Made by a program: the position numbers and the translations under genes. DNA of 38,314 nucleotides from Burkholderiales bacterium (GTDB lineage: Bacteria > Pseudomonadota > Gammaproteobacteria > Burkholderiales > Burkholderiaceae_C): assembly GCA_026932235.1 (NCBI GenBank), contig JAIXKR010000141.1, positions 14,273 through 52,586 on the forward strand. The letters run 5' to 3'. The notes below the pieces were generated by a model. It saw only the letters and a list, made by a program, of their open reading frames with translations. It had not been told where the DNA came from and ran no database searches. Shown one piece after another: positions 7,898-21,418 of this stretch; the first letter of the stretch is position 1, and the number at the start of each line of letters is the position of its first letter.

Positions 7898-8833
7898 ATG
7901 TCCTCGCACGCTCGACCCTGGTGGCTGGAACCGCCCGCGGATGCCGAGGCCGCAGCGCAGGCGGGGCCGGCAAGCCGGCTGCCGCAACTCTCCGAGGCCA
8001 CCGTCTCGCCGCTGCACGAGATCGAGATCCTGGACGAGTACGGCGAGCGGCGGCGCATCTTCATTCCGCTCGAGCGTCCGCTGACGCTCTACGTCGACCG
8101 TCGCGAGCTCGTGACGCTGATGACGCTGGGGGCGCGGCCCGAGCTGCTGGTGCTGGGCTACCTGCTCAACCAGGGGATCGTCCAGGACGTGCACTCGATC
8201 GCCTCGGTCCAGGTCGACTGGGACGTCGGCGCCGCGGCCGTCTTGACGCGTGCCGGCGTCACCGACATCGAGGCGCGCACCGCGCATCGCGTGGTCACCA
8301 CCGGCTGCGGCCAGGGCACGGTCTACGGCGAACTGCTGTCGCGGCTCGAGGGGCTTGCGCTGCCGCCGCCGGCGCAGGCGCGCATCCGCCAGTCGACGCT
8401 GCGCGCGCTGCTGGAGGTCATACGCGCACAGGACAGCATCCACCGCCGCGCGGGCTCGGTGCACGGCTGCGCGCTCTTTCGCGGCGCCGAGCTGCTGGCA
8501 TTCGTCGAGGACGTGGGCCGGCACAACGCCGTCGACACCATTGCCGGCTGGATGGCGCTGCACGAAGTCCGCGGCGGCGACAAGGTTTTCTACACCACGG
8601 GGCGCCTGACGAGCGAGATGGTGATGAAGGCCGCGCACATGGGCATTCCGATCGTCGTCTCGCGCAACGGCGTCACGCAGATGGGCCACGCCCTGGCCAG
8701 CCGGCTGGGCATGACGCTCTTCGGTCGTGCGGCGAACCGGCATTTCCTCTGCTACAGCGGCTTCGAGCGCTTCGACGCCGAGCCGCTGCCGCCGAGCCCG
8801 ACGATGCGCGTGGTCGCAGGCGGCGATGGCTGA
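7898..8833 (+). CDS. fdhD: Formate dehydrogenase sulfurtransferase FdhD
   Basis: 311 residues. FdhD carries sulfur from the cysteine desulfurase IscS to the bis-MGD cofactor, and formate dehydrogenases are inactive without it. Diagnostic stretches are [12 protein letters not shown] (134-145), [25 protein letters not shown], the C-terminal [23 protein letters not shown] and [16 protein letters not shown]. The classic CxxC of E. coli FdhD is reduced to C137-G-Q-G here: the first cysteine remains and the second is absent. The gene opens the long formate dehydrogenase/selenium transcription unit, and its last 8 bases overlap mobA. The ATG at 7898 has no strong ribosome site but is the first in-frame ATG. 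The first ~35 residues are low-complexity and variable. Confidence 0.93.
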
Positions 8834-9467
8834 ACGAACGCCCGCACCCGCTGCGACGGCGGCGCGGGCGGCCGTGCTGCCGCGCGCCCAGGTCACCGGC
8901 CTCGTGCTGGCTGGCGGCCGCGGCAGCCGCATGGGCGGAATCGACAAGGGTCTGCAGCCCTTCGAAGGCCGGGCGCTGGTGCAGCATGCGCTGGAGCGCC
9001 TGGCGCCCCAGGTTGGCGCGATCGGCGTCAACGCCAACCGCAACCTCGAGGCCTACGCGGCGATGGGAGTGCCGGTCTGGCCCGACCCGCTCGCCGACTA
9101 CCCGGGCCCGCTGGCGGGCTTTCTCGCGGGGCTCGAGCAGTGCGCCACGCCCTGGCTCGTCACCGTGCCCTGCGATTCGCCGCGCCTGCCGACGGACCTC
9201 GTGCAGCGCCTGGCCGCAGCGGCGCTGCAGGCCGACGCCGAACTCGCCGTCGCGGCGATCGAGGAGGACGGCGCGCTGCGCGAACAGCCGGTGTTCTGCC
9301 TGCTGCAGCGCACGCTCGCGCCGCGCCTGCGGGCCTTCCTGCAGGAGGGCGGTCGCAAGATCGACCGCTGGACCGGGCAGCAGCGCGGCGTGACGGTGTG
9401 CTTCGACGACGCCGCCGCGTTCTTCAACGCCAACACGCTCGACGACCTGCGCGCAGCGCCGTCCTGA
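8826..9467 (+). CDS. mobA: Molybdenum cofactor guanylyltransferase MobA
   Basis: 213 residues of the MobA nucleotidyltransferase family. The GTP-binding loop [11 protein letters not shown] (28-38) is followed by [15 protein letters not shown], and the metal/nucleotide segment [10 protein letters not shown] is present. MobA joins GMP from GTP to molybdopterin to give the guanine dinucleotide cofactor that formate dehydrogenases need. The ATG at 8826 overlaps the fdhD stop by 8 bases, which shows tight coupling and places the start; an in-frame upstream ATG at 8727 would lie deep inside fdhD. The first ~20 residues are Ala/Pro-rich and precede the domain. Position directly before the formate dehydrogenase subunit genes fits a dedicated cofactor supply for this enzyme. 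Confidence 0.93.
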
Positions 9468-9625
9468 GGGAGCGGCGTCGTGGCCGTCGCGCGACGCGCG
9501 GCAGGAGGCTGCGGGCATACCCTGTTGTCCCGCAGGGGTGCGTGGGCAAGACTTGGCTTCGCGTGCGGCGTGACCGCCATCAACGGCAACCCTTTGCCCG
9601 GGACGCCGGGCCGGAGGCAAATTCG
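9468..9625 (+). promoter_or_regulatory. Leader of the Sec-type formate dehydrogenase operon, two dyads
   Basis: The 158-bp gap between mobA and the alpha subunit is the largest within the locus. CGTCGCGCGACG (9485-9496) is a perfect 12-bp palindrome. CTGCGGG (9509-9515) and CCCGCAG (9529-9535) form a perfect 7-bp inverted repeat across 13 bases. Either could be a mobA terminator hairpin or an operator for a separate promoter. I looked for a sigma-54 GG/GC pair with correct spacing and did not find one. The ribosome site GGAGG is at 9613-9617. Confidence 0.4.
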
Positions 9626-12600
9626 ATGGACATGAACCGGAGGCAGTTCTTCCGGGTCAGCAGCGCGGGGCTCGTCGGCTCCAGTCTGGTCGCGATGGGC
9701 TTTTCGCCCGCCGCCGCCCTGGCCGAGACGCGCAACTACAAGCTGGCCCGTTCGACCGTGGCGCGCAGTACCTGTCCGTACTGCTCGGTGAGCTGCGGCG
9801 TGCTGATCTACTCGCTCGGCGACCGGGCGAAGAACGTCACGCCCAAGGTCATCCACGTCGAGGGCGACCCCGACCATCCGGTGAGCCGCGGCACGCTGTG
9901 CCCCAAGGGCGCCGGGGTGATCGACATGATCAACGCGCCCACGCGCGTCAAGTACCCCGAAGTGCGCGAGGCCGGGTCCAAGGAGTGGAAGCGCATCTCC
10001 TGGGACGAGGCGCTGACGCGCATCGCCACGCACATGAAGGCCGACCGCGATGCCAACTTCGTCGAGAAGAACGCGTCCGGAACCACGGTCAACCGCTGGC
10101 CGACCACGAGCTTCCTGATGTGCAGCTCGTCGTCCAACGAATCCAGCTACCTGGCGGTCAAGGTTGCGCGCGGCCTTGGCATGGTGGGGATCGATACACA
10201 AGCACGCGTCTGACACGCGCCGACGGTGTCCAGTCTGGGCCCGACTTTCGGTCGCGGAGCGATGACCAACTCGTGGAACGACATCAAGAATGCCGATCTG
10301 ATCCTCGTCATGGGCGGCAATGCCGCCGAGGCCCACCCGGTGGGCTTCAAGTGGGTGGTCGAGGCCATGCAGCACCGCAAGGCGCGGCTGATCTCGGTCG
10401 ATCCGCGTTTCAACCGCACCTCGTCGATGGCGGATCTCTACGCGCCGATCCGCAACGGCACCGACATCGCCTTCCTGGGCGGCGTCATCAACTGGCTGCT
10501 CTCCAACGACAAGATCCACCACGACTACGTCAAGTTCAACACCGACGCCACCTTCCTCACCAAGCCGGACTTCAAGTTCGAGAACGGCCTCTTCAGCGGC
10601 TATGACGAGGCCAGGCGCAAGTACGACAAGTCGACCTGGGGCTACCAGCTCGATGACAACGGCTACGTCAGGGTCGACGACAGCATGCAGGATCCGCTGT
10701 GCGTGTACCAGCAGCTGAAGAAGCACTACAGCCGCTACACGCCGGAGATGGTGAACCGCATCTGCGGCACGCCGCAGGACAAGTTCCTGAAGATCTGCGA
10801 GATGCTGGGCGAGATGTCGGCGCCCGACAAGACGAGCACCATCCTCTACGCGCTGGGCTGGACGCAGCACACCGTGGGCAGCCAGAACATCCGCACGATG
10901 GCGATGATCCAGTTGCTGCTGGGCAACATGGGGCGGCCCGGCGGCGGCGTGAACGCGCTGCGCGGCCACTCCAACGTGCAGGGCGTGACCGACATGAACG
11001 CCTATGCCGAGGTGTTCTCGGGCTATCTCGCCGCGCCGACGGACGGCGATCCAGAGTACGCCGCCTTCCTGGCCAAGCGCACCCCCAAGCCGCTGCGCCC
11101 GAACCAGTTCAACTACTGGAGCAACTTCCCGCGCTTCTGGGTCAGCCTGATGAAGTCCTACTTCGGCGCCGCGGCGAAGCCGGAGAACAACTTCTGCTAC
11201 GACTGGGTCCCCAAGCTCGAGGGCGGCTTCGACGTCATGCACATCTTCGAGCTCATGCACCAGGGCAAGATGAACGGTTTCATCTGCCAGGGCTTCAATC
11301 CGCTGGGCTCGGTGCCGAACAAGAACAAGCTCTCGGCGGCGCTCTCCAAGCTCAAGTACCTGGTGAGCATCGACCCGCTGGAGACCGAGACGAGCGAGTT
11401 CTGGCAGAACTACGGGCCCTTCAACGACGTCAAGCCCGAGAGCATCCAGACCGAGGTCTTCCGCCTGCCCTCGGCCTGCTTCGCCGAGGAGGAGGGCAGC
11501 TTCACCAACTCCAGCCGCGTCGCCATCTGGAAGGAGAAGGCGATCGATCCGCCGGGCGAGGCGATCGTCGACTCCGAGATCGTTGCGCGCCTGTTCGTGC
11601 GCCTGCGCGCGATGTACGCCAAGGACGGCGGCAAGTTCCCCGATCCCATCGCCGCGATGGCCTGGGACTACGTGCAGCCCGAAGCGCCGACGGCCGCGGA
11701 GTTGCTGCGCGAAGTCAACGGCCGCGCCATCGGCGACGTGCTCGCGCCGCCGGACCCGAAGGATCCGAACGCGCCGCGCGCGGTGCTCGTGAAGGCCGGT
11801 CAGCAGGTGCCGGGCTTCGCGATGCTGCGCGACGACGGCTCGACCTCGTGCGGCAACTGGCTGTACTCGGGCTGCTGGACCGAGGCCGGCAACATGACCG
11901 CGCGGCGCGACCTCTCCGACCCGACGGGCTGGGGCGTCTATCCGAACTTCGGCTTCTCGTGGCCGGCCAACCGGCGCATCCTCTACAACCGTGCCAGCGC
12001 CGACAAGGACGGCAAGCCCTGGGCGCCGAACAAGAAGTACGAGTACTGGAACGGCAAGGTCTGGACCGGCGCCGACGTGCCCGACATGCGTCCGAACGCG
12101 GCGCCCGAGGAGAACGTCGGCTCCTTCATCATGACCCCCGAGGGCGTGGCGCGGCTGCACGCCGTGGGCATGGCCGATGGGCCCTTCCCCGAGCACTACG
12201 AGCCCTTCGAGACGCCGATCGGCGTGAACCCGCTCCACCCGGACAACCCGAAGGCGCTGAGCAATCCGGCGGCGAGGGTGTTCAAGAGCGACATGGATGC
12301 CTTCGGCAAGAAGGAGGAGTTCCCGTACGCGGCGACCACCTACCGGCTGACCGAGCATTTCCACTACTGGAGCAAGCACGCCAGGCTGAACGCGATCGTG
12401 CAACCCGAGGCCTTCGTCGAGATCAGCGAGGAGCTGGCCAAGGAGAAGGGCCTGAAGCACGGCGACAGCGTGAAGGTCAGCAGCAACCGCGGCCACGTCG
12501 TGACCAAGGTGGTGGTGACCAAGCGCATCAAGCCCTGGGACGTGAACGGGCAGAAGGTGCACCTGGTGGGCATCCCCTTCCACTGGGGCTTCAAGGGGCA

Positions 12601-12706
12601 GACGAAGATCGGCTACCTCTCGAACACCCTGGCGCCCTTCGTCGGCGACGCCAACTCCCAGACGCCCGAATTCAAGGCGTTCCTCGTCAACCTCGAGAAG
12701 GTGTAG
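9626..12706 (+). CDS. fdnG: Selenocysteine-containing formate dehydrogenase alpha subunit (FdnG/FdoG type, periplasmic)
   Basis: One gene of 1026 residues, read through an in-frame TGA at 10211-10213 (codon 196). It oxidises formate to CO2 at a Mo-bis-MGD centre. A Tat signal begins MNRRQFFR (3-10). Cys50, Cys53, Cys57 and Cys92 bind a 4Fe-4S cluster. The TGA falls exactly where the family has selenocysteine: TQARV precedes it and HAPTVSSLGPTFGRGAMTN follows, as in E. coli FdnG, where Sec is also residue 196 (from memory). The reading frame then stays open to TAG 12704-12706, with strong family sequence to the end. A SECIS-like hairpin lies just after the TGA, and selA, selB and selC follow in the same unit. 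Start ATG 9626 has GGAGG 8 bases upstream. fdnG and fdoG cannot be told apart; the symbol marks the type only. Confidence 0.96.
10211..10254 (+). promoter_or_regulatory. Selenocysteine UGA codon and bacterial SECIS hairpin
   Basis: The UGA (10211-10213) is followed by a hairpin of the bacterial SECIS layout. The upper stem GUCCA (10228-10232) pairs with UGGGC (10236-10240), including one G-U pair, around a GUC loop (10233-10235). Below it lies a bulged U (10227), then CGG (10224-10226) with CCG (10241-10243). CCGA (10220-10223) can pair with UCGG (10248-10251) across an internal loop. The GUC loop and bulged U are the features SelB recognises in E. coli fdhF and fdnG. SelB bound here brings Sec-tRNA to the UGA instead of release factor. 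Confidence 0.9.
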
Positions 12707-12709
12707 GCC

Positions 12710-13585
12710 ATGTCCAGTCTGCAATCACAGGACGTGGTCGCACGCTCGGCCACGACGACACCGACGCCGCAGGCGCGTTCGCACGTGCCGCAGGTCGCCA
12801 AGCTCATCGACGAGTCCAAGTGCATCGGCTGCAAGGCCTGCCAGGTCGCGTGCATGGAGTGGAACGACCTGCGCGACGAGGTGGGCAGCAACCTCGGCGT
12901 CTACGACAACCCGAGCGACCTCACCCCCCAGAGCTGGACGGTGATGAGGTTCTTCGAGGTCGAGCCCAAGGACGGCAGCCTCGAGTGGCTGATCCGCAAG
13001 GACGGCTGCATGCATTGCGAGGACCCGGGCTGTCTCAAGGCCTGTCCCTCGCCGGGGGCGATCGTCAAGTACGCCAACGGCATCGTCGACTTCATCAGCG
13101 AGCATTGCATCGGCTGCGGCTACTGCATCAAGGGCTGCCCCTTCGACATCCCGCGCATCAGCGCCACGGACAACAAGGCCTACAAGTGCACCTTGTGTTC
13201 GGACCGCGTCGGCATCGGCCTCGAGCCCGCCTGCGTGAAGACCTGTCCCACGGGTGCGATCACCTTCGGTCCCAAGGACGACATGGTCGCCTACGCCAAC
13301 CAGCGCGCGGGTGAGCTGAAGGAGCGGGGCTTCGTCAACGCCGGGCTCTACAACCCGGCGGGTGTCGGCGGAACGCACGTCATGTACGTGCTCAAGCACG
13401 CCGACCGCCCAGAGCTCGAGGAACTGCCCGCCAACCCGAGCATCAGCCCGATGGTCTCGCTCTGGAAGGGCATCGCCAAGCCGCTGGCGCTGGCCGGCAT
13501 GATCGGCGCCGCGCTGGTGGGCTTCCTGCACTACGTCAAGGTCGGCCCCATCGAGGAAGGCGTCGACGAGAAGGAGGATGCGTGA
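12710..13585 (+). CDS. fdnH: Formate dehydrogenase iron-sulfur beta subunit (FdnH/FdoH type)
   Basis: 291 residues with four cysteine groups for four 4Fe-4S clusters: [37 protein letters not shown] and [20 protein letters not shown]. This is the ferredoxin-like wire that carries electrons from the alpha-subunit molybdenum site to heme in the gamma subunit. One C-terminal membrane segment (about 252-272, [18 protein letters not shown]) anchors it and is followed by an acidic tail. There is no signal peptide; in E. coli this subunit crosses the membrane together with the Tat-signal-bearing alpha subunit. ATG at 12710 is 3 bases after the alpha stop, and the stop overlaps the next start as TGATG. 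The first 25 residues are variable and Thr/Ser-rich. Confidence 0.95.
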
Positions 13586-14205
13586 TGGCTCGGCTGCTCC
13601 ACCGCTACAACGACAGCGAACGCCTCAACCATTGGGTCGTCGCGATCCTGTTCTTCTGCGCCGGTCTCTCGGGCCTGGCCTTGTTCCACCCGAGTCTGTT
13701 CTTCCTCAGCAACCTCTTCGGCGGCGGCCCGTGGACGCGCATCCTGCATCCCTTCCTGGGCGTGCTCATGGCCTTGAGCTTCCTCGGGCTGTTCGTGCGC
13801 TTCTGGAGCCACAACCTCGGCGCCGAGTCGGACAAGGCCTGGAACGACAACATGGGCAAGCTGCTGCGCGGCGACAAGAGCGGCATGCCGCCGGTCGGTC
13901 GCTACAACCCTGGCCAGAAGCGCGTGTTCTGGCTCATGGTTGCGAGCCTGTTCGTGCTCGTGCTCACCGGCATCACCTTCTGGCGGCCGTGGTTCGCACC
14001 CTACTTCTCGATCGAGATCATGCGCGTGGCCGTCGTGCTGCACGCAATCGCGGCGATGGTGCTGGTGATCACCGTCACGGTTCATATCTATGCCGCGATC
14101 TGGGTCAAGGGGACGATGCGTGCGATGACGCGCGGCACCGTATCAGAATCCTGGGCGCGCAAGAACCATGCGCTGTGGTACCAGGAGATGAAGCAGGGCA
14201 AGTAG
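13585..14205 (+). CDS. fdnI: Formate dehydrogenase cytochrome b556 gamma subunit (FdnI/FdoI type)
   Basis: 206 residues with four membrane helices, roughly 15-37, 53-75, 113-132 and 148-172. His16 (RLNHW), His55 (RILHP), His153 (VVLHA) and His167 (TVHIY) lie at the positions of the heme ligands of E. coli FdnI with a constant offset of two residues (from memory), so two b hemes are expected. The subunit passes electrons from the beta subunit to quinone in the inner membrane. The preferred start is ATG 13585, overlapping the beta stop by one base, with AAGGAGG at 13571-13577; a GTG at 13582 is also in frame. It is the last structural gene of the enzyme, followed 15 bases on by fdhE. Confidence 0.94.
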   Translation: MARLLHRYNDSERLNHWVVAILFFCAGLSGLALFHPSLFFLSNLFGGGPWTRILHPFLGVLMALSFLGLFVRFWSHNLGAESDKAWNDNMGKLLRGDKSGMPPVGRYNPGQKRVFWLMVASLFVLVLTGITFWRPWFAPYFSIEIMRVAVVLHAIAAMVLVITVTVHIYAAIWVKGTMRAMTRGTVSESWARKNHALWYQEMKQGK

Positions 14206-14220
14206 CGCCCTGTGGATGCG

Positions 14221-15300
14221 ATGAGCGAAAGCCACCGACCGCGAATCCTGTCCTCCGAAGCCATTGCCGCCGCCGGTGACGGCGGCGGCATCGGTGCGCG
14301 GCCGGCGCTCATCTGGCCCGAGCGCGCCAGCGTCTTCGCCCAGCGGCAGATGCGCTTGCGCCAGCTTGCGCAAGGCCATGCGATGGGCGATTTCCTGCGC
14401 TTCATGTCGGATCTCGCCCAGGTGCAGCAGGCGGCCCTGCAGGAGGGTTCCGGCGAATCGCTGCCGGACCTGCCTTTGCCCGACGCCGCAGCGCTCGAAC
14501 GCGCGCAGCAGGTCGGACTGCCGCCGCTTCCTGCGGCCGACTGGCCGCGCGATGCGGCCTGGCGCGCATCGCTGCGCGCGATGGTGAAGGCGCTGCGCCG
14601 CTGTGAAGCGCCGGAGGGCGTGCGCGCCGCGCTCGATGCCGTCGAACGGTCGAGCGACGACGACCTCGAGCGCCAGGCCGACTGCCTGCTCACCGGCGTC
14701 ATGCACGGCGTCGACCTGGCGACTGCGCCGCTCGTCGCCGCCGCGCTGCAGGTGCACTGGACGCGCCTTGCGCTCGGACTGCAGGCGAGCGGCTGGACGC
14801 CGCCGCCGGCGGCCCTCGGTGCGGCGACGGACGGCTCGGCACTGACCGCCGCCGACGCCGGAAGCTGCCCCTGCTGCGGCAGCCGCCCGACGGCGAGCCT
14901 CACGCGCAGCACCGGCGGCGCCAGTGGGCAGCGCGTGCTGCACTGCAGCCTGTGCAGCGTGCAGTGGCCACTGCCGCGCATCCAGTGCACGCGCTGCATG
15001 GCCACCGAGCGCGTGTACTACCAGTCGCTCGAACTCGCGCAGGCCGGCGCCGAGGAGGACGAAGGGCGCGCGGCGCAGGCGGCGGTGCAGGCCGAGTGCT
15101 GCAGCGACTGCGGCCACTACCTGAAGATCATGCACCGCGACCGCGATGCCTTCGTCGATGCGGTCGCCGACGACTTGGCGACCTTGACGCTGGACCTGCT
15201 GGTTTCCGAGGCCGGACTGCAGCGCCACGGCGTCAACCTGATGCTGCTCTTCGGCGAACCGGGTCCCGTACCCGAAGCCTCGCTCGCGGACGATCGATGA
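14221..15300 (+). CDS. fdhE: Formate dehydrogenase accessory protein FdhE
   Basis: 359 residues. The C-terminal half carries four CxxC pairs: CPCC, CSLC, CTRC and CSDC. These are the metal-binding knuckles of FdhE, which binds the formate dehydrogenase catalytic subunit and is needed for activity of the membrane-bound enzymes. The segment HCSLCSVQWPLPRIQC is especially diagnostic. The N-terminal helical half (about 1-190) is less conserved. ATG 14221 was chosen; an in-frame GTG at 14212 would add three residues. It follows the gamma subunit by 15 bases and precedes selA by 34 bases on the same strand, so maturation and selenocysteine genes appear to share one transcript. Confidence 0.93.
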   Translation: MSESHRPRILSSEAIAAAGDGGGIGARPALIWPERASVFAQRQMRLRQLAQGHAMGDFLRFMSDLAQVQQAALQEGSGESLPDLPLPDAAALERAQQVGLPPLPAADWPRDAAWRASLRAMVKALRRCEAPEGVRAALDAVERSSDDDLERQADCLLTGVMHGVDLATAPLVAAALQVHWTRLALGLQASGWTPPPAALGAATDGSALTAADAGSCPCCGSRPTASLTRSTGGASGQRVLHCSLCSVQWPLPRIQCTRCMATERVYYQSLELAQAGAEEDEGRAAQAAVQAECCSDCGHYLKIMHRDRDAFVDAVADDLATLTLDLLVSEAGLQRHGVNLMLLFGEPGPVPEASLADDR

Positions 15301-15334
15301 GCCGCGGCCCGCGCCCACGCCCAAGGGTGCCCGC

Positions 15335-16789
15335 GTGAGCGCGCGGCCCGCCGAATCCGTCGTCGACGGTTCCAAGGCCAGCCCCAAGGAACTGCCCTCG
15401 ATCGACTTCGTGCTGCGCGACGCGCGCGTGCAAGCCTTGCTGGCCGAGCATGGCCACACCCTGGTCGCGGCGCAGGCGCGTGCGCTGCTCGAGGCGCTGC
15501 GCGAGCGCGCGCGGCTGGGGCAGCTGCCTCGGGAGGAGCTCGCGACCGATTCCCTGCAAGCGGCGCTGCGCGAGCGCGTCGAGCAGCGCCTGCGCCCGCG
15601 CCTGCAGCGCGTGCTCAACCTCAGCGGCACGGTGATCCACACCAACCTCGGCCGCGCCCTGCTTGCCGAGGCCGCGCTGCAGCAACTGCTGCAGACGATG
15701 AGCGGCCCGAACAACCTCGAGTTCGACCTCGCGCGCGGCGGCCGCGGCGACCGCGACGAGCTGGTCGAGGACCTGCTGCAGACCCTCACCGGCGCCGAAG
15801 CGGCGACCGTCGTCAACAACAACGCCGCCGCGGTGCTGCTCACCGTCGCGGCGCTGGCGCGGGGGCGCGAGGTCGTCGTCTCGCGCGGCGAGCTGGTGGA
15901 GATCGGCGGCGCGTTTCGCATGCCCGACGTGATGGCGGCTGCGGGGGCGACGCTCGTCGAGGTCGGCACGACCAATCGCACGCACGCGCGCGACTATGCG
16001 CAGGCCGTCAACGCCCGCACGGCGCTCCTGATGAAGGTGCACACGAGCAACTACGCGCTGCAAGGCTTCACGAGCAGCGTCGGCGAGGCCGAGATCGCGT
16101 CGATCGCGCACGAGCATGGCCTGCCGATGGCCACCGACCTCGGCAGCGGCGCGCTCGTCGACCTGCAGGACTATGGCTTGCCGCACGAGCCGACGCCGCG
16201 AGAGAAGATCGCCGCCGGCTGCGACGTCGTCAGCTTCAGCGGCGACAAGCTGCTCGGCGGCCCGCAGGCCGGGCTCATCGTCGGCAGCCGGGCGGCGATC
16301 GAGCGCATCCGCCGCACGCCGATGAAGCGCGCGCTGCGACTGGGCAAGCTGACGCTGGCCGCGCTCGAGGCGACGCTGCGCCTCTACCTGCGGCCGGAGC
16401 GCCTGGCGCAGGACCTGCCGACGCTGCGCCTGCTGACCCGGCCTGCAGCCGCCATCCGCGCGCTCGCGGAGCAACTGGCGCCGGCGCTGGGCGAAGCGCT
16501 GGCGCCGCGCTTTGGCGTCGAGGCGCTTGACCTGCTCGGGCAGATCGGCTCGGGTTCGCTGCCGGTCGACCGCCTGCCCTCCGCGGGCCTGGCGATCGCG
16601 CCGCGGCAGAACAAGGGCAGGGGCCGCGCGCTCGACGAGCTCGCGGGTGCGCTGCGCGCGCTGCCGCTGCCGGTCATCGGCCGCATCGCCGAGGACCGGC
16701 TGCTGCTGGACCTGCGCTGCCTGGAGGATGGACGCGACGTGCATGCCTTCATCGACCAGTTGCCGCGGCTGCGGCAGGCCCTGGCATGA
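15335..16789 (+). CDS. selA: L-seryl-tRNA(Sec) selenium transferase SelA
   Basis: 484 residues of a PLP enzyme that converts seryl-tRNA(Sec) to selenocysteyl-tRNA(Sec) using selenophosphate. Family stretches include [55 protein letters not shown] and the PLP lysine K305 in [14 protein letters not shown]. It opens with GTG at 15335; residues 1-20 are variable and the family sequence begins near PSIDFVLRD (21-29). Its TGA overlaps the selB start as ATGA. It depends on selenophosphate from SelD, which is not encoded in this window. The tRNA substrate is encoded about 2 kb downstream, and the selenoprotein that uses the product lies upstream in the same unit. Confidence 0.97.
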
Positions 16790-18711
16790 TCGTCGGCACC
16801 GCGGGCCACATCGACCACGGCAAGACGACGCTGGTGCGCGCGCTCACCGGCGTCGATACCGACCGCCTGCCGCAGGAGAAGCAGCGCGGCATCAGCATCG
16901 AGCTCGGCTACGCCTACCTGCCGGTTCCGGGCGACGGCGATCGCATCGGCTTCATCGACGTCCCCGGCCACGAGCGTCTGGTGCACACCATGCTCGCGGG
17001 CGCCAGCGGCATCGACTTCGCGCTGCTGCTGGTGGCGGCCGACGATGGGCCGATGCCGCAGACGCGGGAGCACCTTGCCATCCTCTCGCTGCTGGGCGTG
17101 GCGCAAGGGGCGGTGGCGATCACCAAGGTCGACCGCGTCGATACCGCGCGGCTGGATGCGGTGCGGGTCGAGGTGCAGGCCTTGCTGGCGGGCTCGACGC
17201 TGCAGCATGCGCCCATCGTGCCCGTGTCCGCGCTCGACGGGCAAGGCTTGGCCGATCTGCGCGGGCTGCTGCTCGACGCGGCGCGCGCGCAGGCCGCGCG
17301 CGGCGGCGGTGGGGCGCTGGCGCGGATCGCGGTCGATCGCAGCTTCACGCTCGCGGGAATCGGCACGGTCGCCACCGGCACGGTGCACGCGGGTGCGGTG
17401 GCGGTGGGCGACGAGATGCAGCTCGTTCCCGGCGGCGCGCGCGCGCGGGTGCGCAGCGTGCATGCGCAGAACCGCCCGGTGAACGAGGCCTTGGCCGGCC
17501 AGCGTACGGCGCTGAACCTGCCGGCGCTGGCGCGCGAACAGGTCCAGCGCGGGCAGTGGCTGGTGGCCCCGGCCGTGGCCTTGCAGACGACGCGCATCGA
17601 CGTACAGCTCACGCTCTGGCACGGCGAGGCGCGCGCGCTGCGCAGCGGCACGCCGGTGCACGTGCACCTGGGCGCGGCCGACGTGCTCGGCAGCGTCGCC
17701 GTGCTCGATGCGGGCGATGCGCTCGTCCCCGGCGGTCAGGGCCTGGTGCAGCTCGTGCTGCAGCAACCGCTGGGCGCCTGGTGGGGTGACCGCGTCGTGC
17801 TGCGCGACGCCTCGGCCTCGCGCACGCTGGCCGGCGGCGTCGTGCTCGACCCGTTCGCGCCGGCGCGCTACCGGCGCACGCCGCAGCGGCTGGCCGAAAT
17901 CGACGCCTTGCGGCAACCCGAGCTCGAGACGCGTGCCCGGGCGCTGCTGGCGCTCGCGCCGCAGGGCGTGGACTTGTGGCGACTGGCGCAGGCCGCGGGA
18001 ATCGATCCGCAGCGATTCGCGCCCGAGTTGCCCGAAGGAACGCTTCAGGCGCGCACGTCGGGGCAGTACGCGGCGCTGGGCGCGGCGCACGTCGATGCCG
18101 CGCAGGCGCAGCTGCTCGGCGTGCTCGGCGCCTTTCACGAGCGCCACCCCGACGACGCCGGCCCCGACGCCGCGCGACTGCGCCGCCTGGCCCTGCCGCG
18201 GCTGCCGCAGCCGCTTTGGCGCGCGCTGCTCGAACGCCTGCTGCGGCAGGCGCGGCTGGCGCAGAGCGGCGCCTTCCTGCACCTGCCCGAGCATGGCGTG
18301 CGGCTTTCGGCGACCGAGCAGCGCCTGGCGCAGAAGGTCGCGCCGCGGCTGGCCGAGGCCGGCTTCGACGGCGCGTGGGTGCGCGACCTCGCGCGCGATG
18401 CGGGCGAGAGCGAGCCGCTGCTGCGCACCACGCTCGCGCGCCTGGCGCAGCGTGGCGAATTGCATCAAGTGGTGAAAGACCTCTACTACCCGCAGGCCGC
18501 CATTGCCAGACTCGCGGGCATCGTGCGTACGGTGGCGCAGACCAACGCGGACGAAGTGACGGCCGCGCGCTTTCGCGACGCGACGCAGCTCGGCCGCAAG
18601 CGTGCGATCCAGTTGCTCGAGTATTTCGACCGCATCGGTCTGCTGCGGCGCGTCGGCGACGTGCACCGCCTGCGCAGCGACAGTTCGTTGTTCGTGGAGA
18701 CGCCGACATGA
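16786..18711 (+). CDS. selB: Selenocysteine-specific elongation factor SelB
   Basis: 641 residues. The N-terminal GTPase shows G1 GHIDHGKTT (7-15), G3 DVPGHE (58-63) and G4 TKVD (113-116), then EF-Tu-like domains 2 and 3. The C-terminal ~270 residues form the winged-helix region that binds the SECIS hairpin; the last part ([15 protein letters not shown] to RVGDVHRL) is the typical ending. SelB carries Sec-tRNA(Sec) to the ribosome stalled at UGA before a SECIS. Its start overlaps the selA stop by 4 bases (ATGA). Its stop is 33 bases before selC. Length is slightly above the E. coli protein (614, from memory), with extra residues in Ala/Arg-rich linkers. Confidence 0.97.
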
Positions 18712-18744
18712 GCGCGGGGCTCGCGCCGCCGCGGCGACGATCCT

Positions 18745-18840
18745 GGAGGGGGAACGATCCTGGTGGGTCGGCCGGGCTTCAAACCCGGTGGGTGGCGCCA
18801 TGCGCCGCCGGGTGGGTTCGACTCCCATCCCCCTCCGCCA
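18745..18840 (+). tRNA. selC: Selenocysteine tRNA, anticodon UCA
   Basis: A 96-base tRNA-Sec. The 8-bp acceptor stem pairs GGAGGGGG (18745-18752) with CCCCCTCC (18829-18836), and GCCA is encoded (18837-18840). The 6-bp D stem is CGATCC with GGGTCG around TGGT. The anticodon stem CCGGG/CCCGG holds loop CTTCAAA (18777-18783), with anticodon TCA at 18779-18781. A long variable arm (GGTGGCGC/GCGCCGCC, 8 bp with one G-U) is followed by a T arm with GGTTCGACTCC. The 8-bp acceptor, 6-bp D stem and long variable arm set it apart from serine tRNAs. It lies between selB and the GcvH-like gene on the same strand. Confidence 0.97.
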
Positions 18841-18871
18841 CCGGTCCTGCGACACGGATGGCCGCGCCGCG

Positions 18872-19300
18872 ATGAACGAAGCGATCGAGGCGCCGCCCGA
18901 ACTCCACTACCTGATCGAGCATCAGGTCTGGGCGCGGCTGCACGCGGACGGCAGCGCCACCGTCGGCATCACCGCGCTGGGCATCCGGCTCTCGGGCGAG
19001 ATCTACATGGCGCGGCCCAAGGGCGTGGGCGTGGCGGTGGCGCAGGGCGGCTCGATCGGGGTCGTGGAGCTCGCGAAGTCCATCGTCTCGGTGAAGTCGC
19101 CGCTCACCGGCACCGTGCTCGAAGTCAACCCGGCGCTGGCCGAGCGGCCCCAGCTGGTGCACCAGGATCCCTACGGGCGCGGCTGGCTGGCCCGTCTTCG
19201 CCCCGCCGACTTCGCGCGCGACGCCGCACAGCTGGTGCACGGCGACGCCGTCGCCGCGGCCATGCGCGAGCACGCGCGCCGCCATGCCGACGAACGCTGA
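18872..19300 (+). CDS. GcvH-like lipoyl-domain protein behind selC
   Basis: 142 residues with the glycine cleavage H-protein fold. Recognisable are the opening LHYLIEHQVWARLHADGSAT, VGIT (31-34), GVVELAKSIVSVKSP (63-77) with K69 at the lipoyl-lysine position, LTGTVLEVNPAL, and HQDPYGRGWL near the end. The centre differs from ordinary GcvH: where classical proteins have a GDIVFVELP-like segment, this one reads LSGEIYMARPKGVG (40-53). No gcvT or gcvP is nearby. It starts 31 bases after tRNA-Sec in the same direction, so it probably shares the sel/fdh transcript. H-proteins carry aminomethyl groups or reducing equivalents on lipoate; the partner here is unknown. ATG 18872 was chosen because homology starts about 10 residues later. 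Fold call is firm, function is open. Confidence 0.85.
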   Translation: MNEAIEAPPELHYLIEHQVWARLHADGSATVGITALGIRLSGEIYMARPKGVGVAVAQGGSIGVVELAKSIVSVKSPLTGTVLEVNPALAERPQLVHQDPYGRGWLARLRPADFARDAAQLVHGDAVAAAMREHARRHADER

Positions 19301-19333: not shown

Positions 19334-20881
19334 TTACGCCGCCATCTCGCCGTAGTTCTGCAGCCACCAGGCCGCGACGCGCTCGCGCGCCTCGGGCGCA
19401 TAGTGCAGGCCGAGCTTGCTGCGCCGCCACAGCACGTCGTCGGCGCTGCGTGCCCATTCGGCGTCGTGCAGATGGCGCAGTTCGCCTTCGTGCAACCCGG
19501 GTGCCACCTCCGCGCCCAGTTCGGTGCCCAGCAGCAGGGCCACGCGCGCGCCGTAGGCGTGCACCCAGCGCCGGCGCATCGCCGGCGGCAGGCTCGGATG
19601 CCGGCGCGCGAGCTCGGCGTCGAAGCGCAGGATGTCCTCGTCGGGGCGGGTGAGCCGCGGCAGCAGGCTGCGCAGGTCGCCACCGGGGAGGAAGGCGGTG
19701 TCGCTCCAGCGGCTGGCGCGCCAGCCCAGGGGCTGGCCGAGCAGGTCGGCGGCTTCCTGCGCGAGCACGCGGAAGGTGGTGATCTTGCCGCCCCAGACGT
19801 TGAGCAGCGGCGCGCCGCCCTGCGTGTTGAGGACGAGCTGGTAGTCGCGCGTGACCGCCGCCGGGTTGCCGGACTCGTCCTCGAGCAGCGGCCGCACGCC
19901 GGCGTAGCGCCAGACGACGTCGGCGGGCGTGACCGGGCGCAGGAAGTAGCGGCTGGCCTGCGCGCACAGGTAGCGCACCTCGTCGTCGCTGGCGTCGATG
20001 CGTTCCAGGCCGCCTTCGTGCTCCACGTCGGTGGTGCCGATGAGGGTGAAGTGCTGCTGGTAGGGGATGGCGAAGATGATGCGCCGATCCGGGTTCTGGA
20101 AGAGGTAGGCGTGCTCGTGCGCGAAGAGGCGCGGCACGACGATGTGGCTGCCGCGCACCAGGCGCAGCGAGCGTGCGTGCGGCAGGTGCACGCGTTCGTC
20201 GAGGAAGTGCGCGGCCCAGGGCCCGGTGGCATTGACGAGGGCGCGCGCGCGCACCGTCCGCGGCGCGCCGCCGCGCGGGGCGAGTGTCACCGTCCAGCCC
20301 TGGGCGTCGCGCTGCGCCTGCGTGCAGGCACAGCGGGTGAGGATGCGCGCGCCGCGCGCCGCGGCGTCGACCGCGCACAGCACGACGAGCCGCGCATCGT
20401 CGACGCGGCCGTCGCTGTAGACGAAAGCGCGCGTCAGGTGCGGCTGCAGCGGCGCGCCGGCCTCGTGCCGGCGCAGCGCGACGGTGCGCGAGTCGGGCAG
20501 CCATTCGCGGCGCGCGAGGTGGTCGTAGAGGAAGAGCCCGGCGCGGATCATCCACGCCGGGCGCATCGAGGGGTCGTGCGGCATGACGAAGGACAGCGGC
20601 CCCATGATGTGCGGCGCGCTGCGCAGCAGGCGCTCGCGCTCTGCCAGCGCCTTGCGCACGAGGCCGAACTCGTAGTACTCGAGGTAGCGCAGCCCGCCGT
20701 GGATCAGCTTGGTGCTCGCCGACGAGGTGTGCTGCGCGAGATCGTGCTGCTCGACCAGCACGACCGAGAGGCCGCGACCGGCGAGCTCGCGCGCGATGCC
20801 GGCGCCATTGATGCCGCCGCCGACCACGAGCACGTCACAGCGGCGGTCGGCGGCAGCGTCGTGGGCGGGCGCGGTGGGCAA
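19334..20881 (-). CDS. glpD: Glycerol-3-phosphate dehydrogenase (FAD-dependent, quinone-linked)
   Basis: 515 residues. The FAD-binding loop DVLVVGGGINGAGIAREL (16-33) is followed by LIHGGLRYLEYYEFGLVRKAL, PHDPSMRPAWMIRAGLFLYD, LVNATGPWA, TLIGTTDVEHEG, WRYAGVRPL and WGGKITTFR, all diagnostic for aerobic GlpD. It oxidises sn-glycerol-3-phosphate to dihydroxyacetone phosphate at the membrane surface and feeds electrons to quinone. The start is TTG at 20881, chosen because AAGGAG lies 5 bases upstream on the minus strand and the FAD domain begins soon after; no in-frame ATG is suitably placed. It converges on the GcvH-like gene, with 33 bases between stops. No other glycerol genes are adjacent. 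Confidence 0.95.
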   Translation of the reverse strand: MPTAPAHDAAADRRCDVLVVGGGINGAGIARELAGRGLSVVLVEQHDLAQHTSSASTKLIHGGLRYLEYYEFGLVRKALAERERLLRSAPHIMGPLSFVMPHDPSMRPAWMIRAGLFLYDHLARREWLPDSRTVALRRHEAGAPLQPHLTRAFVYSDGRVDDARLVVLCAVDAAARGARILTRCACTQAQRDAQGWTVTLAPRGGAPRTVRARALVNATGPWAAHFLDERVHLPHARSLRLVRGSHIVVPRLFAHEHAYLFQNPDRRIIFAIPYQQHFTLIGTTDVEHEGGLERIDASDDEVRYLCAQASRYFLRPVTPADVVWRYAGVRPLLEDESGNPAAVTRDYQLVLNTQGGAPLLNVWGGKITTFRVLAQEAADLLGQPLGWRASRWSDTAFLPGGDLRSLLPRLTRPDEDILRFDAELARRHPSLPPAMRRRWVHAYGARVALLLGTELGAEVAPGLHEGELRHLHDAEWARSADDVLWRRSKLGLHYAPEARERVAAWWLQNYGEMAA

Positions 20882-21022: not shown

Positions 21023-21418
21023 ATGAGCTTCGAAGCCGATTCGCTGGCCGGCGTGGCGCTGCTGCTGTGGTCGGCCGACCCGTCCGCGCCCGAGCGTCTG
21101 GCCACGCCCTTTTTTCACGCTGCGGCGGCCGCGGCGATGGACGTGCCGGTGGAGATCTACTTCACGGCCGGCAGCGTGCGCCTGCTCGTGCCGGGCGTGG
21201 CGGACGCGCTGCGCGCTTCGCCGCGGGTGCAGAAGAGCATCGGCGAGCATCTGCGCGAGGCGGTAACGCATGGCGCGGTGCTGCTGGCCTGCTCCGACGC
21301 GCTGCACGCACAGGGCATCGATGCCGCGCAGCTGATCCCGCAGTGCACGCGCCGCGGCGGCGCGGTGCAGTTCATGGCCCGCGCCTGCGATCCGCGCTGG
21401 CGTACGCTGGTGTTCTGA
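21023..21418 (+). CDS. DsrE/DsrF-like small protein
   Basis: 131 residues resembling the DsrE/TusD sulfur-relay fold: an N-terminal strand GVALLLWSADP, VPVEIYFTAGSVRLL (41-55) and VLLACSDALHAQGI (87-100), where Cys90 sits at the usual sulfur-carrying position of the family. Further cysteines are at 108 and 122. Family members shuttle persulfide sulfur or act as small regulators; many are uncharacterised. No TusBCE, rhodanese or other sulfur gene is adjacent, so a role cannot be given. ATG 21023 follows a palindrome in the upstream gap. The stop is 3 bases from the convergent Mpo1-like gene. Confidence is moderate on family and low on function. Confidence 0.65.
   Translation: MSFEADSLAGVALLLWSADPSAPERLATPFFHAAAAAAMDVPVEIYFTAGSVRLLVPGVADALRASPRVQKSIGEHLREAVTHGAVLLACSDALHAQGIDAAQLIPQCTRRGGAVQFMARACDPRWRTLVF

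Follow-up and report, generated by a model that had tools for sequence, protein, structure and literature searches.

We analysed a 38,314-nucleotide stretch of DNA from a Burkholderiales bacterium (the window; NCBI GenBank assembly GCA_026932235.1, contig JAIXKR010000141.1, positions 14,273 to 52,586 of the forward strand), which carries genes for a predicted selenocysteine (Sec)-dependent formate dehydrogenase, for Sec decoding and, at the 3' end of this block, for a GcvH-like protein (GcvHl) and a DsrE-family protein. The host genome is a draft of 169 contigs that is 81% complete and 5.8% contaminated. An original prediction from the sequence alone had placed fdhD, mobA, fdnG, fdnH, fdnI, fdhE, selA, selB, selC and the GcvH-like gene on one strand between 7898 and 19300 with overlaps or short gaps, and we find all ten so arranged on the plus strand, the widest gap being the 158 bp from mobA to fdnG. 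SelA, SelB and tRNA-Sec all score over their cut-offs, which identifies the bacterial Sec trait, and the alpha, beta and gamma subunits of formate dehydrogenase-N all exceed their NCBIfam cut-offs (Table 1).

The TGA predicted at codon 196 of fdnG is present at 10211-10213 and lies within a match to the selenocysteine insertion sequence (SECIS) model SECIS_3. This is the sole SECIS match in the window at the gathering threshold; fdnG had been named the only UGA-Sec client there. The folding energy of the hairpin is unremarkable on its own (z -0.59) and was dropped as evidence. No selD lies in the window, as had been noted; a genome-wide search finds it on another contig (G000:C116:48982-49911, 417 bits; such labels, and the L numbers of loci, are our own handles), which removes the refuting case of a genome lacking selD. 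Two overlapping frames lie downstream of this selD, neither with an NCBIfam match, and a selenouridine synthase neighbor was rejected.

Two limits of the predicted unit had to be redrawn. The boundary at the GcvH-like gene is too short, since a DsrE-family gene accompanies that gene, in the window on the far side of an opposite-strand glpD. At the other end, fdhD and mobA had been counted as parts of the block, and a conserved fdhD-mobA upstream unit was rejected because FdhD and MobA were each seen in only 2 of 45 stretches around SelB genes (60 bits, opposite strand; at least 2, the counts being lower bounds). These stretches represent 45 of the 46 places with SelB over cut-off in a sample of 150 genomes of the window's order, the window's own place excluded; each spans at most 20 kb and is bounded by contig ends.

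GcvHl is found 3' of selB or selC in 7 of the 45 SelB stretches, and DsrE is directly next to it in 7 of 7. A DsrE profile (A1) built from the eight resulting DsrE proteins (the window's and those of the seven pairs) matches 47 of the 150 genomes. The eight sel-linked proteins take the top eight places with 179-202 bits, the next match scoring 153, a rank that is partly by construction because the profile was built from them. This top group occurs in 8 of the 44 genomes with SelB and in 0 of the 106 without it (Fisher p 3e-5, with no correction for kinship). A Sec link common to all DsrE relatives was ruled out by 12 genomes in which relatives score 145-153 bits and the fetched stretches contain no GcvHl or SelB match; one of them (L188) has weak FdnH- and FdnI-like matches (31% and 28%). 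Among 397 genomes of the phylum, nine have a DsrE match at 1e-20; only the window's genome and G344 exceed 180 bits, and the rest reach at most 110. G344 is outside the profile set and carries fdnG-fdnH-fdnI-fdhE-selA-selB-selC-GcvHl-DsrE consecutively on a single contig.

We then considered the best 80 of 121 DsrE relatives from 84,980 species genomes, a set with many near-duplicates whose loci are interrelated rather than independent. The records are chiefly Burkholderiales and Rhodocyclales bins and isolates; L172 comes from G081, a genome already among the 150, and L140 is likely a contig of G135, likewise included there. GcvHl is present in 79 of the 80 loci, the exception being L129, where DsrE starts 82 bases from the contig end. 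The gap between the two genes exceeds 250 bases in 4 of the 79 (three loci interrupted by glpD, and L140). SelB is found in 67 loci, and 63 hold fdhE or at least one fdn gene; 75 have either, 55 both, 12 sel alone, 8 fdn alone and 5 neither (L129, L133, L137, L160 and L175, four of them with the pair within ~2 kb of a contig end). In 6 of the 67 SelB loci the pair stands on the strand opposite to selB, still nearby. Wherever the Sec position of FdnG can be read in the pair loci, a stop codon stands there (32 of 32), and these loci take in 6 of the 8 with fdn alone; the reading in pair loci and SelB stretches is of a stop with the codon unnamed, whereas the 150-genome survey of FdnG names TGA.

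A few features of these loci are recorded for completeness. The closest locus is that of Rubrivivax sp. SCN 71-131 (L098), with FdnG at 96% over the part inside the stretch. Here and in L099 and L107, glpD separates GcvHl and DsrE, and in L100 it lies downstream of DsrE. The mobA gene is directly 3' of the DsrE gene in L164, L166, L168, L170, L174 and L177. Several records bear the label Bordetella; our guess is that these are misnamed environmental bins.

GcvHl was next compared with known lipoyl carriers. It shares the fold and the lipoyl lysine of the canonical GcvH of glycine cleavage: the predicted structure is of GCV_H type, with K69 in a hairpin turn (predicted local distance difference test score, pLDDT, 94), and E66 and K69 are invariant (80 of 80). 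It differs in scoring below both NCBIfam GcvH cut-offs (97.7 against 117 and 82.8 against 115.85 bits), in its position on the tree and in that no other gcv gene is named in the block. The genome carries a separate GcvH, 33% identical to GcvHl. A tree of 58 proteins places canonical GcvH in one clade (support 100) and Hdr-labelled carriers in another (89), with 2 label changes for the sel- or fdn-linked proteins, which may have a single origin. Like our other trees it is a quick search, drawing on 23 of the 79 genome-contig proteins; a Pfam check of its Hdr-labelled loci covered L193 only, L190-L192 and L194 share its genes, and L210-L214 are labelled by similarity only. A stray glycine-cleavage gene was rejected on the sub-cut-off scores, the separate genomic GcvH, the tree position and the conservation.

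For the sHdr complex of sulfur oxidisers, sulfur is handled by a DsrE3 protein together with the lipoylated carrier LbpA, according to the accessible parts of the reports (PMC12423496, PMC6067878). The likeness to our pair is that a GcvH-like lipoyl carrier stands beside a DsrE-type transferase and keeps the lipoyl lysine. LbpA is described, in the portion of the source used here, as having two conserved cysteines near its ends (PMC6067878); the GcvHl of the window has none and 54 of the 79 remaining proteins have at most one, the Sec-linked proteins form a separate tree group, and no Hdr-type gene is found among the genes annotated at 3116-23611. Judged by its sequence, GcvHl is neither a canonical GcvH nor, by the signature cysteines, an LbpA. 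Homologs of the pair do lie in a sulfur-oxidation cluster of Hdr type, L193, which has genes for Fe-S, CCG and flavin proteins, then a GcvH-like, a DsrE and a second GcvH-like gene, then radical SAM genes; the arrangement of the Sec-linked pair is related to this one minus the oxidising enzyme, with Sec genes instead.

In the DsrE protein C90 is invariant (81 of 81) and follows strand 86-89 in the model (pLDDT 95.7), whose best matches among solved structures are DsrE/DsrF-type proteins. A DsrE domain is also tied to selenium genes in YedF/FdhU (TIGR03527) and, as cited in the part of Lin et al. (2015; PMC5322559) used here, to a Campylobacter selenium-dependent formate dehydrogenase. That study's candidate selenium genes, as far as the same part goes, are YedE, YedF, a LysR-type regulator and DUF3343. 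The window's protein matches only the DsrE domain in Pfam and nothing in NCBIfam; unlike the SirA plus DsrE architecture of YedF/FdhU it has no SirA domain, and it has a lipoyl-type partner instead. YedF had no match at 1e-10 in the 44 SelB genomes and none over cut-off in 14 control genomes either, so the sensitivity of this search is unproven.

Table 1. Genes and elements of the Sec formate dehydrogenase block and its neighbors, in window coordinates.
Feature	Position	Strand	Evidence
fdhD, divergent FdhD-NarQ family sulfurtransferase; neighbor, outside the constant part of the block	7898..8833	+	Pfam FdhD-NarQ 247 bits (cut-off 27); NCBIfam 123-128 bits, below cut-off
mobA, molybdenum cofactor guanylyltransferase; neighbor	8826..9467	+	NCBIfam 224 bits (cut-off 152), scanned from 8829
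fdnG, formate dehydrogenase-N alpha subunit, predicted selenocysteine at codon 196 (TGA 10211-10213)	9626..12706	+	NCBIfam 1446 bits (cut-off 814)
SECIS element over the fdnG TGA	10208..10266	+	Rfam SECIS_3 70.6 bits (gathering 63)
fdnH, beta subunit	12710..13585	+	NCBIfam 438 bits (cut-off 335)
fdnI, gamma subunit (cytochrome b556)	13582..14205	+	NCBIfam TIGR01583 182 bits (cut-off 116)
fdhE, formate dehydrogenase accessory protein	14221..15300	+	NCBIfam 215 bits (cut-off 188)
selA	15335..16789	+	NCBIfam 587 bits (cut-off 268)
selB	16786..18711	+	NCBIfam 462 bits (cut-off 242)
selC, tRNA-Sec	18744..18840	+	ARAGORN; Rfam 83 bits (gathering 47)
GcvHl, GcvH-like carrier, predicted lipoylation lysine K69	18872..19300	+	Pfam GCV_H 99.6 bits; K69 80/80; model pLDDT 94
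glpD, glycerol-3-phosphate dehydrogenase; between GcvHl and DsrE, outside the module	19334..20881	-	NCBIfam 712 bits
DsrE-family protein, partner of GcvHl, invariant C90; beyond the originally predicted unit	21023..21418	+	Pfam DsrE 30.5 bits (cut-off 22.7); C90 81/81; pLDDT 95.7; DsrE/DsrF fold match

The distribution of the block bears on the original suggestion that the trait is gained or lost as a unit. Scores over cut-off were obtained for SelB in 44 of the 150 genomes, for SelD in 113 and for FdnG in 36. An internal TGA interrupts FdnG in 31 genomes (one match partial, one split), all within the 44 with SelB, and 6 further genomes have a stop-free FdnG alone. In the SelB stretches, fdnG is present in 23 of 45 with a stop at the Sec position in 23 of 23; a weaker second match in L057 has Cys instead. 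In the SelB tree, L209 of the same family and L066 of another (f12) cluster with the window at support 98, and L050 and L054 of the window's own family fall in a different clade, which is consistent with lateral transfer of the block. SelB relatives occur on 93 plasmid records, 46 of them typed conjugative, and the one plasmid examined (Paracoccus, typed non-mobilizable) carries fdxH, the formate dehydrogenase gamma gene, fdhE, selA and selB in order. A plasmid-borne pair was rejected, as no DsrE match was found among 72,556 plasmid records. The order of the Sec and formate dehydrogenase genes is the same in Pseudomonas aeruginosa.

The co-occurrence of SelB and TGA-type FdnG, the SelB tree and the plasmid records thus support gain or loss as a block, but sel and fdnG are also separable. 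Independent inheritance had been named as a refuting case; 13 of the 44 SelB genomes show no TGA-type FdnG, and 8 of the 80 pair loci have fdn without sel in the stretch. The likely client in 8 of those 13 genomes is SelD, whose match there contains an internal TGA. Across the survey, a SelD match with one internal TGA is found in G005, G011, G045, G054, G059, G088, G097, G101, G125 and G135; in all ten, SelD is probably a selenoprotein in its own right. The portable Sec and formate dehydrogenase block is already known: the part of Zhang et al. (2006; PMC1794560) drawn on here describes selA-selB-selC with fdhA as a transferable unit in Alpha- and Betaproteobacteria and Pseudomonadales, fdhA being the only selenoprotein and selD standing and evolving apart. 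The genes clustered are the same as in the window; the GcvH-like/DsrE pair is unmentioned in that part of the paper.

Gene content among the sel genes varies. Between fdhE and selB, selA is missing in L066 (whose contig is probably that of L140) and in L107; the genome of L066 (G135) has a second SelB on another contig with an adjoining selA. Of the 80 pair loci, 21 have a gene for a sulfide-dehydrogenase (FCSD)-like flavoprotein, mostly located between selA and selB (e.g. L105, L111, L117, L164 and L170); the window has none. A gene of ~400 amino acids near the sel genes was considered as a cysteine desulfurase and rejected, as it encodes a transglutaminase-type protein; it stands among the sel genes in L061, L073, L086, L100, L130, L139, L144 and L172, and two scanned proteins have a Tat-signal match.

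We propose, with a probability of roughly 45%, that the window carries a chromosomal block that moves laterally and encodes a Sec formate dehydrogenase-N, and whose conserved GcvHl/DsrE pair would serve as a cytoplasmic chalcogen relay for SelD. The block would contribute fdnGHI, as the putative respiratory enzyme, together with FdhE and its own selA, selB and selC, and would use the selD located elsewhere in the genome. In this relay C90 of DsrE would bind the chalcogen, selenium in perselenide form or sulfur in persulfide form, and exchange it with the lipoyl arm of GcvHl, from which the chalcogen would then be used by SelD, much as the DsrE3/LbpA carriers act in sHdr sulfur oxidation. That the cargo is selenium and not sulfur is the least certain step, selenium delivery being in our estimate the most likely. 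The stricter version, a relay dedicated to selenium in which lipoate would be the shuttle and a sulfur-oxidation carrier branch would have been turned to Sec synthesis, is a more tentative idea that we regard as rather unlikely.

In favor of this proposal we count the confinement of the top-scoring DsrE group to SelB genomes, the unbroken gene run in G344, a linkage kept through inversion and across several SelB lineages, the invariant K69 and C90, the stops at the Sec position, the L156 locus with sel genes and no fdn match, the homologs in L193 and the lack of a YedF match. Several observations weigh against it. The pair is absent from 36 of the 44 SelB genomes and is therefore not essential to the trait, the fdn-only loci have it with no sel gene in the stretch, the loci are related, and the top rank of the sel-linked DsrE proteins is partly a product of how the profile was built. 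In L133 the pair has neither sel nor fdn within 2.4 kb on one side, where the genes are unrelated, or within 10 kb on the other. This exception and the YedF search without a positive control lower our confidence slightly.

Alternatively, the pair may carry sulfur for the maturation of formate dehydrogenase, feeding the FdhD-dependent sulfuration of the molybdenum cofactor, which we regard as rather unlikely. The eight loci in which the pair stays beside fdnGHI-fdhE favor such a role, and the DsrE and LbpA relatives are sulfur carriers as described in the parts of PMC12423496 and PMC6067878 cited above. However, all six of these loci that can be read have a stop codon at the Sec position of FdnG, and the eight genomes with the pair include none of the six whose only FdnG is stop-free, a comparison of few cases. 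Selenium is favored because L156 has selD, selA, selB and selC with the pair and no fdn match in 20 kb, and because the Sec position is kept in every readable partner.

A passenger role, in which the pair joined the block and has persisted by chance or operon inertia, is improbable. The many SelB genomes without it fit this view, as does the kinship of the loci; against it, the linkage outlasts inversion, the absence of selA between fdhE and selB (L066, L107) and the absence of all sel genes from the stretch, and the pair is spread over several SelB lineages (5 label changes on the SelB tree) with its key residues invariant. More improbable still is a GcvHl that lies by chance near formate dehydrogenase as a glycine-cleavage carrier linking glycine-derived one-carbon units to formate, which the GCV_H domain, the lipoyl lysine and formate being a one-carbon compound would suit, but which is at odds with the sub-cut-off GcvH scores, the separate genomic GcvH, the distance from canonical GcvH on the tree, the fixed DsrE partner and the lack of a named GcvP or GcvT among the genes annotated in the block.

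The GcvHl/DsrE pair, which may deliver selenium or sulfur, looks new as a part of the block as far as the literature searched goes: no description of it with selenium, Sec or formate dehydrogenase was found in the available portions of open-licence papers. According to the section consulted of a 2026 review (PMC13188914), the form of selenium used by SelD in vivo and its donor system are incompletely elucidated. A carrier pair beside Sec and formate dehydrogenase genes in many Burkholderiales records would make this question testable by gene deletion, and its role would widen the known roles of lipoate.

The window's genome holds two further items of relevance to formate dehydrogenase. A second Sec formate dehydrogenase block in the same bin (L086; G000:C112:1-12441) comprises fdnG, fdnH, fdnI, fdhE, selA, a sulfide-dehydrogenase-like flavoprotein gene, a transglutaminase-type gene and a selB cut by the contig end. 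Its GC content is 63%, against 70.5% for the window and 71-73% for two other stretches, and contamination of the bin is possible. A second FdhD (G000:C84:33427-34143, 213 bits) scores over the NCBIfam cut-off, the FdhD beside the block being the divergent one.

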